Part shown: in pieces, positions 2,492 through 7,545 of the stretch
Position numbering within the stretch: the stretch's first letter is position 1
Layout of the letters: the number at the start of each line of letters is the position of its first letter
Assembly: GCA_030452225.1 (NCBI GenBank)
Contig: JAKDMP010000006.1
Coordinates: 1 to 33,575 of the forward strand
Direction of reading: 5' to 3'
Source of the DNA: Gammaproteobacteria bacterium
GTDB taxonomy: Bacteria; Pseudomonadota; Gammaproteobacteria; JAKDMP01
Length of the DNA: 33,575 nucleotides
Notes under the pieces: model-generated
The model's input: the letters and a program-made list of their open reading frames with translations, nothing else
Told to the model about the DNA's origin: nothing
The model's database searches: none
Made by a program: the position numbers and the translations under genes

Positions 2492-3415
2492 ATGAAAGTG
2501 GTTTTTGCCGGCACGTCGGAATTTGCGGTGCCGGCCTTCCATGCGCTGATGGATTCGGATCATGAGCTGGCGCTCACGCTGACGCAACCCGCGCGCCCGG
2601 CGGGACGCGGGCGCCGATTGCGCCACACGCCCTTGCACGATGCCGCCATGGAATGCGGGATCGAGCCGCTCATGCCGAAGAACCTGAATGACCCCTCGCT
2701 GCTCGAGCGGCTGAAGGGGGCCGGGCCCGATGCCTTGATCGTCGTCGCCTACGGCCGCCTCATTCCGCCGGCGATGCTGGAGCTGCCCCGTTTCGGCGGC
2801 ATCAATCTGCATCCTTCGCTGCTGCCGCGCTGGCGGGGCGCCGCGCCGGTGGAGCGCGCAATGCTGGCGGGCGATCGCGAGACCGGAGTAGCCGTCATGC
2901 GCATGGTGGAAACGCTCGATTCCGGGGAGGTCTACGGCCTGGACACCGTCGCAATCAAGGAGCGTGAAACGGCCGGCGAGTTGTCGGCGCGGCTGGCCGG
3001 ACGCGGTGCCGCCTTGCTGCTGGAAACGCTGGACGCGCTTGAATCCGGCAAGGCCGATGCGCGCGCGCAGCAGGGGGAAGCCACTTATGCCCGTCGACTG
3101 GAAGTCGGCGAAGCGCGGCTGGATTTCACCCAACCGGCACGTTTGCTGGCCCGCCGCGTCATGGCCTTCAATCCGCGCCCGGTCGCCTGGTGCGAGATGG
3201 ACGGCGAACGTCTGCGGATCCTGCGAGCGATGGCGCTGGACGAACCTGCCGGCGGCGCGATCGGGACGGTGGTGACGGCCGGCAAGTCCGGGCTCGACAT
3301 CGCCACTGGGCAAGGGCGTTTGCGTGTCACCGAATTGCAGCGCGCAGGCCGCAAAGTGCAGGGTGCCGATACATTGTCCCGCTCCGGAGACTGGGCGGGC
3401 CGACGTCTTGGCTGA
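2492..3415 (+). CDS. fmt: Methionyl-tRNA formyltransferase
   Basis: Transfers a formyl group from 10-formyltetrahydrofolate to initiator Met-tRNA, the step that def later reverses on the protein. The 307-residue length is standard. The N-terminal domain opens with MKVVFAGTSEFAVP. The catalytic triad of the formyltransferase fold is seen as Asn105 and His107 in INLHPSLLPRWRGAAP and Asp143 in the following LDSGEVY segment. The C-terminal OB-like tRNA-binding domain (about 205-307) is present. A GAAGAAGG-type Shine-Dalgarno sequence precedes the ATG. Relatives often have rsmB (16S rRNA methyltransferase) directly after fmt; it is missing here and only 76 bases separate fmt from the DUF4390 gene. 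Confidence 0.97.
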   Translation: MKVVFAGTSEFAVPAFHALMDSDHELALTLTQPARPAGRGRRLRHTPLHDAAMECGIEPLMPKNLNDPSLLERLKGAGPDALIVVAYGRLIPPAMLELPRFGGINLHPSLLPRWRGAAPVERAMLAGDRETGVAVMRMVETLDSGEVYGLDTVAIKERETAGELSARLAGRGAALLLETLDALESGKADARAQQGEATYARRLEVGEARLDFTQPARLLARRVMAFNPRPVAWCEMDGERLRILRAMALDEPAGGAIGTVVTAGKSGLDIATGQGRLRVTELQRAGRKVQGADTLSRSGDWAGRRLG

Positions 3416-3491
3416 GAATGCCCGATGCGCAACAGTGCATTCGTCCGCAAATTCTTGTCTGCCGCCGCGCCCTACGCATTACACTACGAAT

Positions 3492-4094
3492 ATGAATGAA
3501 ACGCGTGACCGGATCGATCTGCCCGGACGTACCGCATGGTGCATGGCTTGGGCGTTGCTTCTGTTTGCGGCATCGATTGGCATGGCGCCTGGCGCACACG
3601 CGGACCCCGCCTTTGCCATCGAAAGGATTTCGACCGAGCTCGAACAGGGCGTCTATTACGTCAATGCGGATTTTCGGATCGAACTCAACCAGCGCGCCGA
3701 CGAAGCGCTCGACAACGGGGTGGCACTGACATTCGTCATCCAGATCCACATCCAGCACCATCGTTTATGGCTCTGGAACTCGGTGGATGCCAATCTCACG
3801 GAGCGTTACAGGCTGCGCTATTATCCGCTCACCGAACGCTACCGGGTGGCCAACCTCAACAGCAGTGCCCAGCAAAGTTATGCCACGCTTTCCAAAGCCT
3901 TGTCGGCGATCAGCCGGGTACGCCACCTTCCCGTGATCGATGCTACGTTGCTGGACGCGGATACCGCGTACTACGTGGCCATGCGCATGGTGCTCGACAC
4001 CAAGCAGTTGCCCGGCCCGCTCAAGATCATGGCCAGAATCGTGCCGGGCTGGCAGTTGTCCAGCAATTGGCGTGAAGTACGGTTGAAGCCATGA
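3492..4094 (+). CDS. DUF4390 exported protein
   Basis: A 200-residue protein of unknown function with an N-terminal signal peptide (hydrophobic WALLLFAASIGMA, then a likely cleavage after AHA). The body (about 40-200) is beta-rich and matches the DUF4390 family that regularly precedes ntrY in beta- and gammaproteobacteria. The ATG at 3492 was chosen over a longer frame from 3324 because the upstream residues overlap fmt and lack any signal-peptide character. No strong ribosome binding site precedes it, and an ATG at 3543 could also serve. Its stop overlaps the ntrY start as ATGA, so the two are translationally coupled. The position suggests it supports or is sensed by the kinase, but this is inference from context only. 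Confidence 0.75.
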   Translation: MNETRDRIDLPGRTAWCMAWALLLFAASIGMAPGAHADPAFAIERISTELEQGVYYVNADFRIELNQRADEALDNGVALTFVIQIHIQHHRLWLWNSVDANLTERYRLRYYPLTERYRVANLNSSAQQSYATLSKALSAISRVRHLPVIDATLLDADTAYYVAMRMVLDTKQLPGPLKIMARIVPGWQLSSNWREVRLKP

Positions 4095-6253
4095 ACAAGG
4101 CGTCCACCGTGTTGCTGCTGGTCGCACTCGCGATCGTGGGGGCGGCGCTGTATCTCCTCAGTTTGAGTACCGCCCATTCCGAGACCTTCGGGCAGTGGCA
4201 TCTGTGGCTGATTGCCGCCAATATCGTGGTGGCACTGGGATTGATCACGGTGATCGCGCTGAACATCTGGCGTTTGGTGCATGCGCTCAGGCGATCGCGA
4301 ACCGGCGCAAGGCTTACCGTGCGATTGGTCGTGTTGTTTACCGCGCTGGCCATGTTGCCGGTTGGGGCGGTGTTTTATTTTTCCGTGCAGTTTATCAACC
4401 GCAGCATCGACAGCTGGTTCACGCTCAATGTCGGCTCGGCGTTGAATGACGCCTTGGTGCTGTCCCGTGAGGCTTTGGCCGGCGAGACAGGCCCTTACGC
4501 CGGTGCCAGCGCGCAAGCGGCACGCATGCTTGCCAACCGCGGTCCCGAACCCCTCGGCACGGCCCTGAACAGGTTGCGTCGCCAGTTGGGGGCCGATGCG
4601 CTCGGCGTCTATGCCAGTGATGGGCGGCCCGTCGAGGCAAGCATGGCGGGTACGTCAGCCGTGCCATTGGCCGTGCCGGCGTCCGGCATGGCCGCAAAAC
4701 TGGTCCAACACGGCTCCCAGGTCGAGTTGTTCTCGCATGGCGGGGATGGGTTGTACGTGCGTGTTTTTGCTCCGATGCGCACGGTTGGGGGACGTTACCG
4801 GGTTCTCGAGGCGCAATACAAGGTAGCCGGGCAGTCGAGTGTTTTGGCGCGTCGCGTGGAAGCGGCCTACAGCCGTTACCAGGAATTGCAGTACATGCGC
4901 CAACCGTTGAAGACGAGTTTCACGCTGACGCTGTCCCTGGTTCTGCTGCTATCGCTCCTTGCCGCAATCTGGGCCGCTTTCTTTGCTGCCCGCCGCGTGG
5001 CCGAGCCCGTGCGGGAGTTGGCGCGTGCCGCGCAGGCAGTCGGGCACGGCGATTTCAAGGTGCGCGTACCTGAAAAAAACCGGGACGAGATCGGTTTTCT
5101 GGCGCAGGCGTTCAATGACATGACCGAGCATCTGGCGCGCACAAGGGCAGCGGCCGATCGCGGTCAGCGCGCGCTGGAAGCGGAGCGGACCTGGCTGGCC
5201 ACGGTGCTCGGCGCCTTGTCGGCAGGGGTGGTTACACGCGACGCGCAGGGCAACCTCAGGAGCATCAATGCCGCGGCTACCCGCATGCTGGGCCTTGAGC
5301 CGGGGCGTTGGGTCGGCAGATCGTTGGATCAATTGCTGCAGGCGCATCCCGAGTTTGCCGCCTTGCTTCGCAGTGAGAGTCCGCAATCGGGCAGTCTTTA
5401 CGATGTACGCGTTCTTTTGCCGGCGGGAGATCGAACCCTGCGCGCGGGCTACACGGAATTGGGGGCCGGCACCTCGACGCCATCGGCCGGCTGCGTGTGG
5501 ATTTTCGAGGACGTCACGGAATTCGTGATGGCCCAGCGCAAAGCCGCTTGGGGCGAAGTGGCACGTCGTCTGGCGCACGAGATCAAGAATCCGTTGACGC
5601 CGATCCAGCTTGCGGCGGAGCGCTTGCGCAGGAGGTGTCTCGGAGCGCTCAAGGGGCGCGAAGCGGAGATTCTCGATCGCGGCACGGCCACGATCGTCAG
5701 CCAGGTGCAGGCGATGTTGGCCATGGTGGACGCATTCTCGGCCTACGCGAAAAGCCCGCCGCTGGCTTTCTCGGAGGTTGACCTGTCTGCCCTGTTGCGC
5801 GAGGTGGCCGACCTGTATCGAGGCCGAGCGGATCTCCAGCTCGAGGTGACGACGTCTCCTCGATTGGAGCCGATAACGGCGGACTCCGCGCGCTTGCGGC
5901 AAATTCTCCACAACTTGATCAAGAATGCCATCGAGGCGCAGGAAGACAGGCCGGGCCCGATTCGCGTCTTGCTTGTTGCCGGGCCGGCCGGGGAAGACCC
6001 GCAGACCGTCGCGTTATGCGTGCAGGACGAGGGGCCGGGATTTGCGCCGCAGTTGCTGGCTCATGCTTTCGAACCCTACGTCAGCGGCAAGGCCCGAGGG
6101 ACGGGCCTGGGGCTGGCGCTGGTGCGCAAGCTTGCCGAAGAACATGGCGGAACGGTCAGTCTGCACAACCTTTCCAGGGGAGGCGCGGAGGTGCGCGTAA
6201 CGCTGCCGCGCCGGCGGCCATCGCTTAAACTTTTGCAGGGAGGTGTTTCATGA
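4091..6253 (+). CDS. ntrY: NtrY-type membrane sensor histidine kinase
   Basis: A 720-residue sensor kinase in the inner membrane. The N-terminal 105 residues hold about three hydrophobic segments. After an extracytoplasmic stretch comes a further membrane helix at about 276-300, then a HAMP domain (about 298-352), a PAS domain (about 367-480) and the catalytic core. The H box RLAHEIKNPLTPIQLAAERL has the phosphorylated His496. The N box has Asn612 in HNLIKNAIEA. The G2 box is GTGLGLALVRKL from about residue 670. The motifs are intact, so the kinase looks active. It overlaps the DUF4390 gene upstream and the regulator gene downstream by 4 bases each, making one transcription unit. NtrY/NtrX pairs act in nitrogen, redox or envelope responses in different bacteria; the signal here is unknown. 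Confidence 0.9.
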   Translation: MNKASTVLLLVALAIVGAALYLLSLSTAHSETFGQWHLWLIAANIVVALGLITVIALNIWRLVHALRRSRTGARLTVRLVVLFTALAMLPVGAVFYFSVQFINRSIDSWFTLNVGSALNDALVLSREALAGETGPYAGASAQAARMLANRGPEPLGTALNRLRRQLGADALGVYASDGRPVEASMAGTSAVPLAVPASGMAAKLVQHGSQVELFSHGGDGLYVRVFAPMRTVGGRYRVLEAQYKVAGQSSVLARRVEAAYSRYQELQYMRQPLKTSFTLTLSLVLLLSLLAAIWAAFFAARRVAEPVRELARAAQAVGHGDFKVRVPEKNRDEIGFLAQAFNDMTEHLARTRAAADRGQRALEAERTWLATVLGALSAGVVTRDAQGNLRSINAAATRMLGLEPGRWVGRSLDQLLQAHPEFAALLRSESPQSGSLYDVRVLLPAGDRTLRAGYTELGAGTSTPSAGCVWIFEDVTEFVMAQRKAAWGEVARRLAHEIKNPLTPIQLAAERLRRRCLGALKGREAEILDRGTATIVSQVQAMLAMVDAFSAYAKSPPLAFSEVDLSALLREVADLYRGRADLQLEVTTSPRLEPITADSARLRQILHNLIKNAIEAQEDRPGPIRVLLVAGPAGEDPQTVALCVQDEGPGFAPQLLAHAFEPYVSGKARGTGLGLALVRKLAEEHGGTVSLHNLSRGGAEVRVTLPRRRPSLKLLQGGVS

Positions 6254-7545
6254 CCAGAGAGCAGACACCGCGCGTTCTAGTCGTGGATGACGAACCGCAG
6301 ATCCGCTCGGCCATCGGCGAAATACTTACGGACGAAGGCTACAACGTGGCGTTGGCGGCGGGCGCCGCCGAGGCGCGTCACGAATATGCGCAGGCGCGGC
6401 CCGACCTCATTCTGCTGGATGTCTGGATGGAAGGCGAAGACGGCATCTCTCTCTTGAAGGCCTGGTCCAAGTCGATGGCCAGTCTTCCGCCGGTTTTGAT
6501 GATGTCGGGTCATGGAACCGTGGATACGGCCATCGAGGCAACGCGCCTGGGGGCCCTGGACTTTGTCGAAAAACCGCTGTCCCTGGCGAAACTCCTGCAT
6601 ACGGTCGAGCAGGCCCTCAAGACCGCACCGCGCCAGCGCGAACCGTTGGGCGCCGCCCCATTGCTCGATCTGATCGCCGCCCATCCGGAAATTGCTCGGC
6701 TCAAGCGCGAAATGGCGGCGGTGCTCGGCCATGCGGAGCCCATCTTGTTCATCGGCGAAAGCGGGAGTGGCCGGGAAACTCTTGCGCGGCGCCTGGCCCG
6801 GGAAGGGAACCGGGCATTTCTGCGGTTGCCGCTTGCAGGAGCCGCGCCAATGGATATTCGCACCCGCATTGAAGATTTGGACAAGCCGACACTGGTTTTC
6901 CTGGGTGGCGTGGACGATGCCGAGGTAGACGTGCAAGAGGCTTTGATCAGGATGATCTCGCGCGAGAGCGGCCGCCTGGCGCGTTTTATTGCATCGGCGC
7001 GGCCCGCGGCGGGCAACAGCAATATTCCGGCCGGCCTGCAACGCGACCTGTACGATCGTGTTGCGGTGTTCAGGATCGAGGTGCCCTCCTTGCGCGAATA
7101 CCGCGATTACCTGCCGGAAATCATCCGTTATTACGTGGATGAGTTGGCCGATCTGCGCGGCTACGCATTTCGGCGATTCGACGCGGCCGCCCTCAACCGC
7201 TTGCGCCGCCACGACTGGCCGGGCAACCTGCGCGAACTCATCAATGTTCTGAAACGACTGCTTGCCGGCGGTTCGACCGACACGGTTTCCCTGCACGAAG
7301 CGGATGGGGCGTTGATGACGTCTGCATCTTCGGCGCCGCGTGTGGGGGAGGACATGTTGTCTTTGCCGTTCCGCGAGGCGCGGGACCGATTCGAACGGGC
7401 CTATCTCGAAGCGCAGTTGGATCTGGTCGACGGCAAGGTAGCAGCGTTGGCCGAGCGCGTGGGCTTGGAGCGCACGCACCTGTATCGCAAGCTCAAGGCG
7501 CTCGGGATCGATCTGTCCGACGACCGCATCGCCCGCGAAAGTTGA
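6250..7545 (+). CDS. ntrX: NtrX-like response regulator with degenerate AAA+ domain
   Basis: A 431-residue partner of the upstream kinase, coupled to it by an ATGA overlap. The receiver domain (1-125) is complete: Asp13/Asp14, phospho-acceptor Asp57, Ser86 and Lys108. The middle domain resembles the sigma-54 activator AAA+ module but is reduced. The Walker A site reads GESGSGRE (169-176) with Arg175 where Lys is expected. The GAFTGA loop that contacts sigma-54 is absent. The Walker B region reads TLVFLGGVDD rather than a LDEIGD-type motif. WPGNLREL begins at Trp323, only about 154 residues after Walker A, roughly 40 fewer than in NtrC. The C-terminal Fis-type helix-turn-helix is intact (KVAALAERVGLERTHLYRKL). 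I infer a DNA-binding regulator that does not activate sigma-54 promoters by ATP hydrolysis. Confidence 0.85.
   Translation: MTREQTPRVLVVDDEPQIRSAIGEILTDEGYNVALAAGAAEARHEYAQARPDLILLDVWMEGEDGISLLKAWSKSMASLPPVLMMSGHGTVDTAIEATRLGALDFVEKPLSLAKLLHTVEQALKTAPRQREPLGAAPLLDLIAAHPEIARLKREMAAVLGHAEPILFIGESGSGRETLARRLAREGNRAFLRLPLAGAAPMDIRTRIEDLDKPTLVFLGGVDDAEVDVQEALIRMISRESGRLARFIASARPAAGNSNIPAGLQRDLYDRVAVFRIEVPSLREYRDYLPEIIRYYVDELADLRGYAFRRFDAAALNRLRRHDWPGNLRELINVLKRLLAGGSTDTVSLHEADGALMTSASSAPRVGEDMLSLPFREARDRFERAYLEAQLDLVDGKVAALAERVGLERTHLYRKLKALGIDLSDDRIARES

Follow-up and report, generated by a model that had tools for sequence, protein, structure and literature searches.

An NtrX response regulator with a shortened AAA+ domain, lacking both pore loops and the Walker B acidic pair, in a gammaproteobacterial plrP-ntrY-ntrX locus

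Gene organisation of the ntrX locus

The window, i.e., the whole analysed stretch of 33,575 nucleotides, belongs to a gammaproteobacterial metagenome-assembled genome (MAG). It includes a gene for a response regulator of the NtrX type, preceded by a sensor kinase gene and a plrP-like gene. The following features were located:

2492..3415, + strand: fmt, directly upstream of plrP (NCBIfam)
3492..4094, + strand: plrP-like gene, DUF4390 (PF14334, E 2e-49; start codon chosen by eye)
4091..6253, + strand: ntrY, membrane sensor kinase with HAMP, PAS, HisKA and HATPase domains (Pfam)
6250..7545, + strand: ntrX, response regulator of 431 aa (ORF call, Pfam, NCBIfam, PDB match)
6271..6615, + strand: NtrX receiver domain, residues 8-122, phospho-site D57 intact (Pfam)
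6754..6777, + strand: Walker A GESGSGRE, residues 169-176, Lys replaced by Arg175 (sequence)
6868..6888, + strand: site of the absent L1 (GAFTGA) loop, a short turn between helix 200-208 and strand 214-219 (model, alignment)
6889..6918, + strand: Walker B position, TLVFLGGVDD, Asp-Glu replaced by Gly219-Gly220 (alignment)
6964..6981, + strand: site of the absent L2 (pre-sensor-I hairpin), 10 residues against 20 in most orthologues (model)
7216..7236, + strand: sensor II segment WPGNLRE, intact (alignment)
7369..7512, + strand: NtrX Fis-type HTH domain, residues 374-421 (Pfam HTH_8)

The kinase NtrY was intact, with all four domains, and its gene overlapped ntrX by four bases (ATGA), in line with the coupling of the pair noted in an earlier sequence-only reading. 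An ATGA overlap was likewise present between plrP and ntrY. Downstream of ntrX, genes for a sodium-solute symporter and uvrD were located on the opposite strand. CAAN2-5TTG is an NtrX-type site known from Brucella and Sinorhizobium. It occurred 27 times in the window versus 15 times in mononucleotide shuffles, which are a weak control for so loose a motif. One copy was located at 3448 in the gap between fmt and plrP, but the motif is too loose for it to count as evidence.

DUF4390 (PlrP) and NtrX co-occurred in 29 of 56 genomes and were both absent in 27, using score thresholds and setting aside matches to proteins other than NtrX. This co-occurrence agrees with the PlrP-NtrY-NtrX unit of Bordetella, where the DUF4390 protein was reported as the third component of an NtrYX-type system, PlrPSR (PMC13001219). 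The Bordetella plrP-plrS-plrR genes resemble the window locus in gene order, in the four-base overlap of plrP and plrS and in the DUF4390 partner. The window locus differs in that its NtrX still has a shortened AAA+ domain and in that rsmB is missing upstream of plrP. The absence of rsmB between fmt and plrP (gap 3415-3492) was shared with G001, the sister genome from the same family, and a PF01189 protein was found nowhere in either genome. Several further genomes of the class have rsmB adjoining plrP. The alphaproteobacterial ntrYX neighbourhood is linked to ntrBC, unlike that of the window (PMC13001219).

Domain structure and family identity of NtrX

The order of domains was receiver, AAA+-type centre and Fis-type HTH, as in NtrX. 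The receiver was matched at residues 9-119 and the HTH at residues 379-417. The centre matched Sigma54_activ_2 at residues 143-281 and an AAA lid at residues 282-361, and the match to PF00158 was confined to residues 142-189 (Pfam). NtrX was the top NCBIfam match (NF051870) with 262 bits, which did not reach the curated cut-off of 600 bits. Six other NtrX orthologues tested scored 261-485 bits and also remained below this value, so the cut-off excludes the tested Gammaproteobacteria and Betaproteobacteria and not the window protein alone. The best PDB matches by sequence and structure were 5m7n, 5m7o and 5m7p, representing Brucella NtrX with ATP, ADP or no ligand. These Brucella abortus structures, including the ATP and ADP complexes, were reportedly obtained by Fernandez et al. 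2017. The window protein is an NtrX orthologue, the usual partner of the sensor kinase NtrY.

All of the receiver residues D13, D14, D57, S86 and K108 were present. They are near-invariant across the family, with D13, D14, D57 and K108 found in 109 of 109 orthologues that cover the receiver. The Pfam matches and intact key residues confirmed the earlier description of a complete receiver combined with a Fis-type DNA-binding domain.

Reduction of the AAA+ core

A GAFTGA motif was sought in window NtrX and not found. The Walker A motif GESGSGRE carries Arg for Lys, and FLGGVDD takes the place of the usual Walker B; all three features had been read correctly from the sequence alone. The shortening had been overestimated at about 40 residues. 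The span from Walker A to sensor II measured 158 residues in window NtrX versus 187-190 (mostly 189) in 26 same-group bEBPs and 184 in most gammaproteobacterial NtrX. The core is therefore 31 residues below sigma-54 activators and 26 below most gammaproteobacterial NtrX.

Window NtrX was modelled with AlphaFold2 from 81 aligned sequences, giving a mean pLDDT of 90.3. The AAA+ domain folded in the model, with short turns where L1 and L2 would be; at the L2 site, the turn links helix 226-239 to strand 244-250. Neither the alignment nor the model contained a functional loop in altered sequence. The whole-chain rmsd between the model and Brucella NtrX was approximately 15-16 Å, presumably due to a differing domain arrangement. 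Structural matches restricted to the AAA+ domain, e.g., FleQ, aligned over 209-214 residues at 2.3-2.6 Å. Brucella abortus NtrX resembles window NtrX in combining a receiver, an AAA+ domain without GAFTGA and a Fis-type HTH. It has kept the Walker A Lys (GPSGAGKE) and the Walker B motif YLDEVAD, both of which are lost in window NtrX, and according to the sequence alignment it retains the L2-bearing segment that window NtrX lacks.

Distribution of the losses among NtrX orthologues

The survey comprised 110 NtrX orthologues: 29 full sequences from the class of the window genome, its own among them, the partial sequence C61, and 80 from organism-titled records. These 80 were the ones that best matched an NtrX alignment headed by the window protein, so that they lean towards it. 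A GAFTGA-like motif was present in 0 of the 110 aligned sequences. Position 175 was Lys in 59, Arg in 39 and Phe, Leu, Ile, Thr, Ala or Val in 12, i.e., the Walker A Lys was absent in 51 of 110. Among the 30 sequences not picked by similarity (the 29 and C61), 21 had Lys, eight Arg and one Leu. The Walker B Asp-Glu pair was kept in 27 and absent in 83 of the 110. On independent tree pairs, which were very few, no link was seen between the loss of the Walker A Lys and the loss of Walker B. Same-group bEBP controls, chosen by a strong Pfam score that favours canonical proteins, showed a GAFTGA-type loop together with the Walker A Lys whenever they could be parsed, with the exception of one that was itself an NtrX; Asp-Glu was present in every case where the Walker B pattern matched, with three controls unparsed and three more giving no Walker B match.

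To judge from the alignment, L1 has been lost throughout the NtrX family, and gammaproteobacterial NtrX often lacks the Walker A Lys. The suggestion of a rewired NtrY-NtrX pair was not upheld, since L1 is missing family-wide, including Brucella 5m7n and Caulobacter NtrX, and the Lys is frequently lost. What is particular to window NtrX is the loss of L2, at the level of the bacterial family, and of the Walker B pair, at the level of the species; the loss of L1 and of the Lys is not.

Two organism titles in the sample may be mislabelled. The NtrX of L084, titled as a Klebsiella pneumoniae MAG, grouped with Steroidobacteraceae-like sequences, and that of L107, titled as a Bordetella parapertussis MAG, grouped with Nitrosospira/Thiobacillus-like sequences.

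Fixation of arginine at position 175

A maximum-likelihood tree of NtrX was made without the Walker columns, so position 175 was not used. It contained a clade of 22 sequences (SH-aLRT 99) with Arg175 throughout, which comprised window NtrX, its family sister G001, C61 and Steroidobacteraceae- and Woeseiaceae-named relatives. A second Arg-only group of 11 was composed largely of Chromatiaceae and symbionts. An AU test did not reject one clade for both Arg groups (p 0.18). Within the clade of 22, only 21 of the approximately 220 columns that make up the AAA+ domain and lid were invariant, among them Arg175, G169, E170 and G172. The Walker B positions 219 and 220 were conserved at 32% and 50%, respectively, and the sensor II Arg was present in 59% of the clade. 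As to whether the reduced form is a clade trait, L1 was lost family-wide in the alignment with related NtrX, and Arg175 was invariant in this clade.

Of 33 sequences, 32 used a CGN codon for Arg175, which marks the Arg as old and not as the product of a recent single-step change from Lys. Its fixation looks like selection for a phosphate-contacting residue and not like random loss. Changes from Lys to Arg in the P-loop can spare nucleotide binding yet stop hydrolysis, as in RecA K72R. The Walker B sequence in the relatives of window NtrX was FLDEVDD in C61 and YLGELDE in G001; the Gly-Gly form is thus known from the window species only.

Loss of the second loop L2

The L2 segment had 10-11 residues in the window family versus 20 in 88 of 110 NtrX. 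Among the 11 NtrX with the shortest L1 (<=13 residues), L2 was <=11 residues in all 11, compared with one of the 99 others. These 11 were three members of the window family, seven of a Thiobacillus/Nitrosospira grouping, and G003. L1 and L2 measured 13 and 10 residues in window NtrX and 12 and 10 in Thiobacillus/Nitrosospira NtrX (L102, L111, L113 and others), in which both loops are lost as in window NtrX. These proteins have Phe, Ala, Val or similar at position 175, where window NtrX has Arg. In the trees of both NtrX and NtrY, the window family joined the Arg clade (SH-aLRT 99), apart from the betaproteobacterial group. AU tests did not reject the window family and the betaproteobacterial group as a single clade (NtrX p 0.51; NtrY p 0.23), so no claim of convergent loss of L1 and L2 is made. 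A keyword search of open-licence papers for the AAA+ domain of betaproteobacterial NtrX had no match.

A shortened AAA+ domain was still present in the NtrX proteins of Thiobacillus and Nitrosospira and in those next to them in the tree (L113, L116, L102, L106, L107, L111 and L114), contrary to PMC13001219, where betaproteobacterial NtrX was reported to lack the AAA+ domain.

Sigma-54 in the genome and selection on ntrX

The gene rpoN, whose presence had been proposed as a check, was found in the window genome (96.9% complete, 231 contigs), along with two normal bEBPs carrying the loops GSFTGA and GAFTDA. The loop loss in NtrX consequently does not follow from a loss of sigma-54, and the change concerns NtrX specifically. 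Elsewhere in the genome, sigma-54 activation presumably goes on, with NtrX as the exception.

A second, partial ntrX followed by the same downstream genes was located on C61 (L037), a contig of the same MAG. As C61 has the same genes after ntrX as the window, a paralogue was rejected in favour of a co-binned sister species as its most likely source. The two copies of ntrX were 71% identical with a pN/pS of 0.27, a rough value as synonymous differences were near saturation. By domain, pN/pS rose from 0.09 in the HTH, the most conserved of the domains compared, through 0.20 in the lid to 0.34 in the AAA+ core; all values were well below 1. There was no sign of a frameshift in ntrX. The pLDDT of 90.3 and the pN/pS of 0.27 indicate that the gene encodes a genuine protein on which purifying selection acts.

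Discussion

Window NtrX is very probably a phosphorylation-switched DNA-binding regulator, encoded in a plrP-ntrY-ntrX operon, that acts independently of sigma-54 and uses its AAA+ remnant as a scaffold. The intact kinase, intact receiver and gene overlap suggest that NtrY would phosphorylate D57, and this would control the dimer or oligomer state and promoter binding by the Fis-type domain. Action is predicted at ordinary (sigma-70-type) promoters, either as repressor or as activator. With L1, L2 and the acidic pair of Walker B gone, the AAA+ domain would no longer remodel the sigma-54 holoenzyme. The remnant folds in the model and would link the receiver with the DNA-binding domain, and the conservation of the P-loop Arg suggests that contact with nucleotide phosphate may persist without hydrolysis. 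The sigma-54-independent route anticipated by the sequence-only reading is well supported, as neither pore loop is found in the sequence or in the model.

The sigma-70-type route has a precedent in NtrC proteins without GAFTGA. NtrC of Rhodobacter capsulatus and of Caulobacter lacks the motif and acts at sigma-70 promoters (PMC10274813). These regulators are NtrC, not NtrX, and L1 is lost in them as in window NtrX; Caulobacter NtrX was also reported without GAFTGA (PMC10274813). Caulobacter NtrC was reported to require ATP binding and hydrolysis (PMC10274813). Hydrolysis of this kind is unlikely in window NtrX, as Walker B is absent from its sequence.

Alternatively, the AAA+ remnant could be a pure scaffold that binds no nucleotide, with Arg175 propping the P-loop and the protein working like the AAA+-free betaproteobacterial NtrX/PlrR (PMC13001219). 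The loss of Walker B in window NtrX, the fact that no more than 59% of the clade of 22 have the sensor II Arg and the six other residues, from Phe to Val, at position 175 in 12 of 110 orthologues are consistent with such a role, as is the reported existence of the AAA+-free form itself. The invariance of Arg175, G169, E170 and G172 amid varying neighbours in the clade of 22 argues against it, as does the age of the Arg indicated by the CGN codons in 32 of 33 sequences; on balance, a nucleotide-free scaffold is quite conceivable but falls somewhat short of probable. Activation of sigma-54 through a changed contact loop and ATP site would fit the retained sensor II, the general AAA+ fold and the presence of rpoN. 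No residues are left for L1 or L2, which are short turns in the model, and Walker B has become Gly-Gly, making this reading extremely improbable.

Decay of ntrX into a non-functional gene would agree with the AAA+ alpha/beta domain being the fastest-evolving part in the nearest pair (pN/pS 0.34 vs 0.09 for the HTH). It is nevertheless very unlikely: three lineages of the family have an open frame, pN/pS is below 1 in each domain even if these values are rough and near saturation, the overlap with ntrY is conserved, and the key residues of receiver and HTH are intact. An assembly error or frameshift that shortened the AAA+ domain might be suspected in a fragmented MAG of 231 contigs; with the same two deletions recurring in G001 and in the co-binned contig C61, it was ruled out.

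Across the NtrX family, the AAA+ motor may have been dismantled stepwise to a module that does not hydrolyse ATP and is either nucleotide-sensing or purely structural, in which the fixed Arg would mark an ATP-binding switch without hydrolysis. This broader interpretation is tentative and rather less than probable. In such a series, L1 would have gone at the family's base and Walker B relaxed, after which some large clades would have fixed Arg in place of Lys, followed by loss of L2 and finally the AAA+-free betaproteobacterial form. The absence of GAFTGA in NtrX is already published for Caulobacter, and the modest new part is the graded loss together with the fixed Arg. In the open-licence papers covered, no account was found of losses graded across Gammaproteobacteria, of the fixed Arg or of L1 and L2 being lost jointly, and parts may be published.

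The finding is an evolutionary case and no new system; the bacterial family of the window is only further along than most NtrX. It offers a natural series from a sigma-54 activator to a plain DNA-binding response regulator, in which one can ask which parts of a motor outlive its job. It also serves as a warning, as many NtrX annotated as 'sigma-54-dependent' are unlikely to be such activators.
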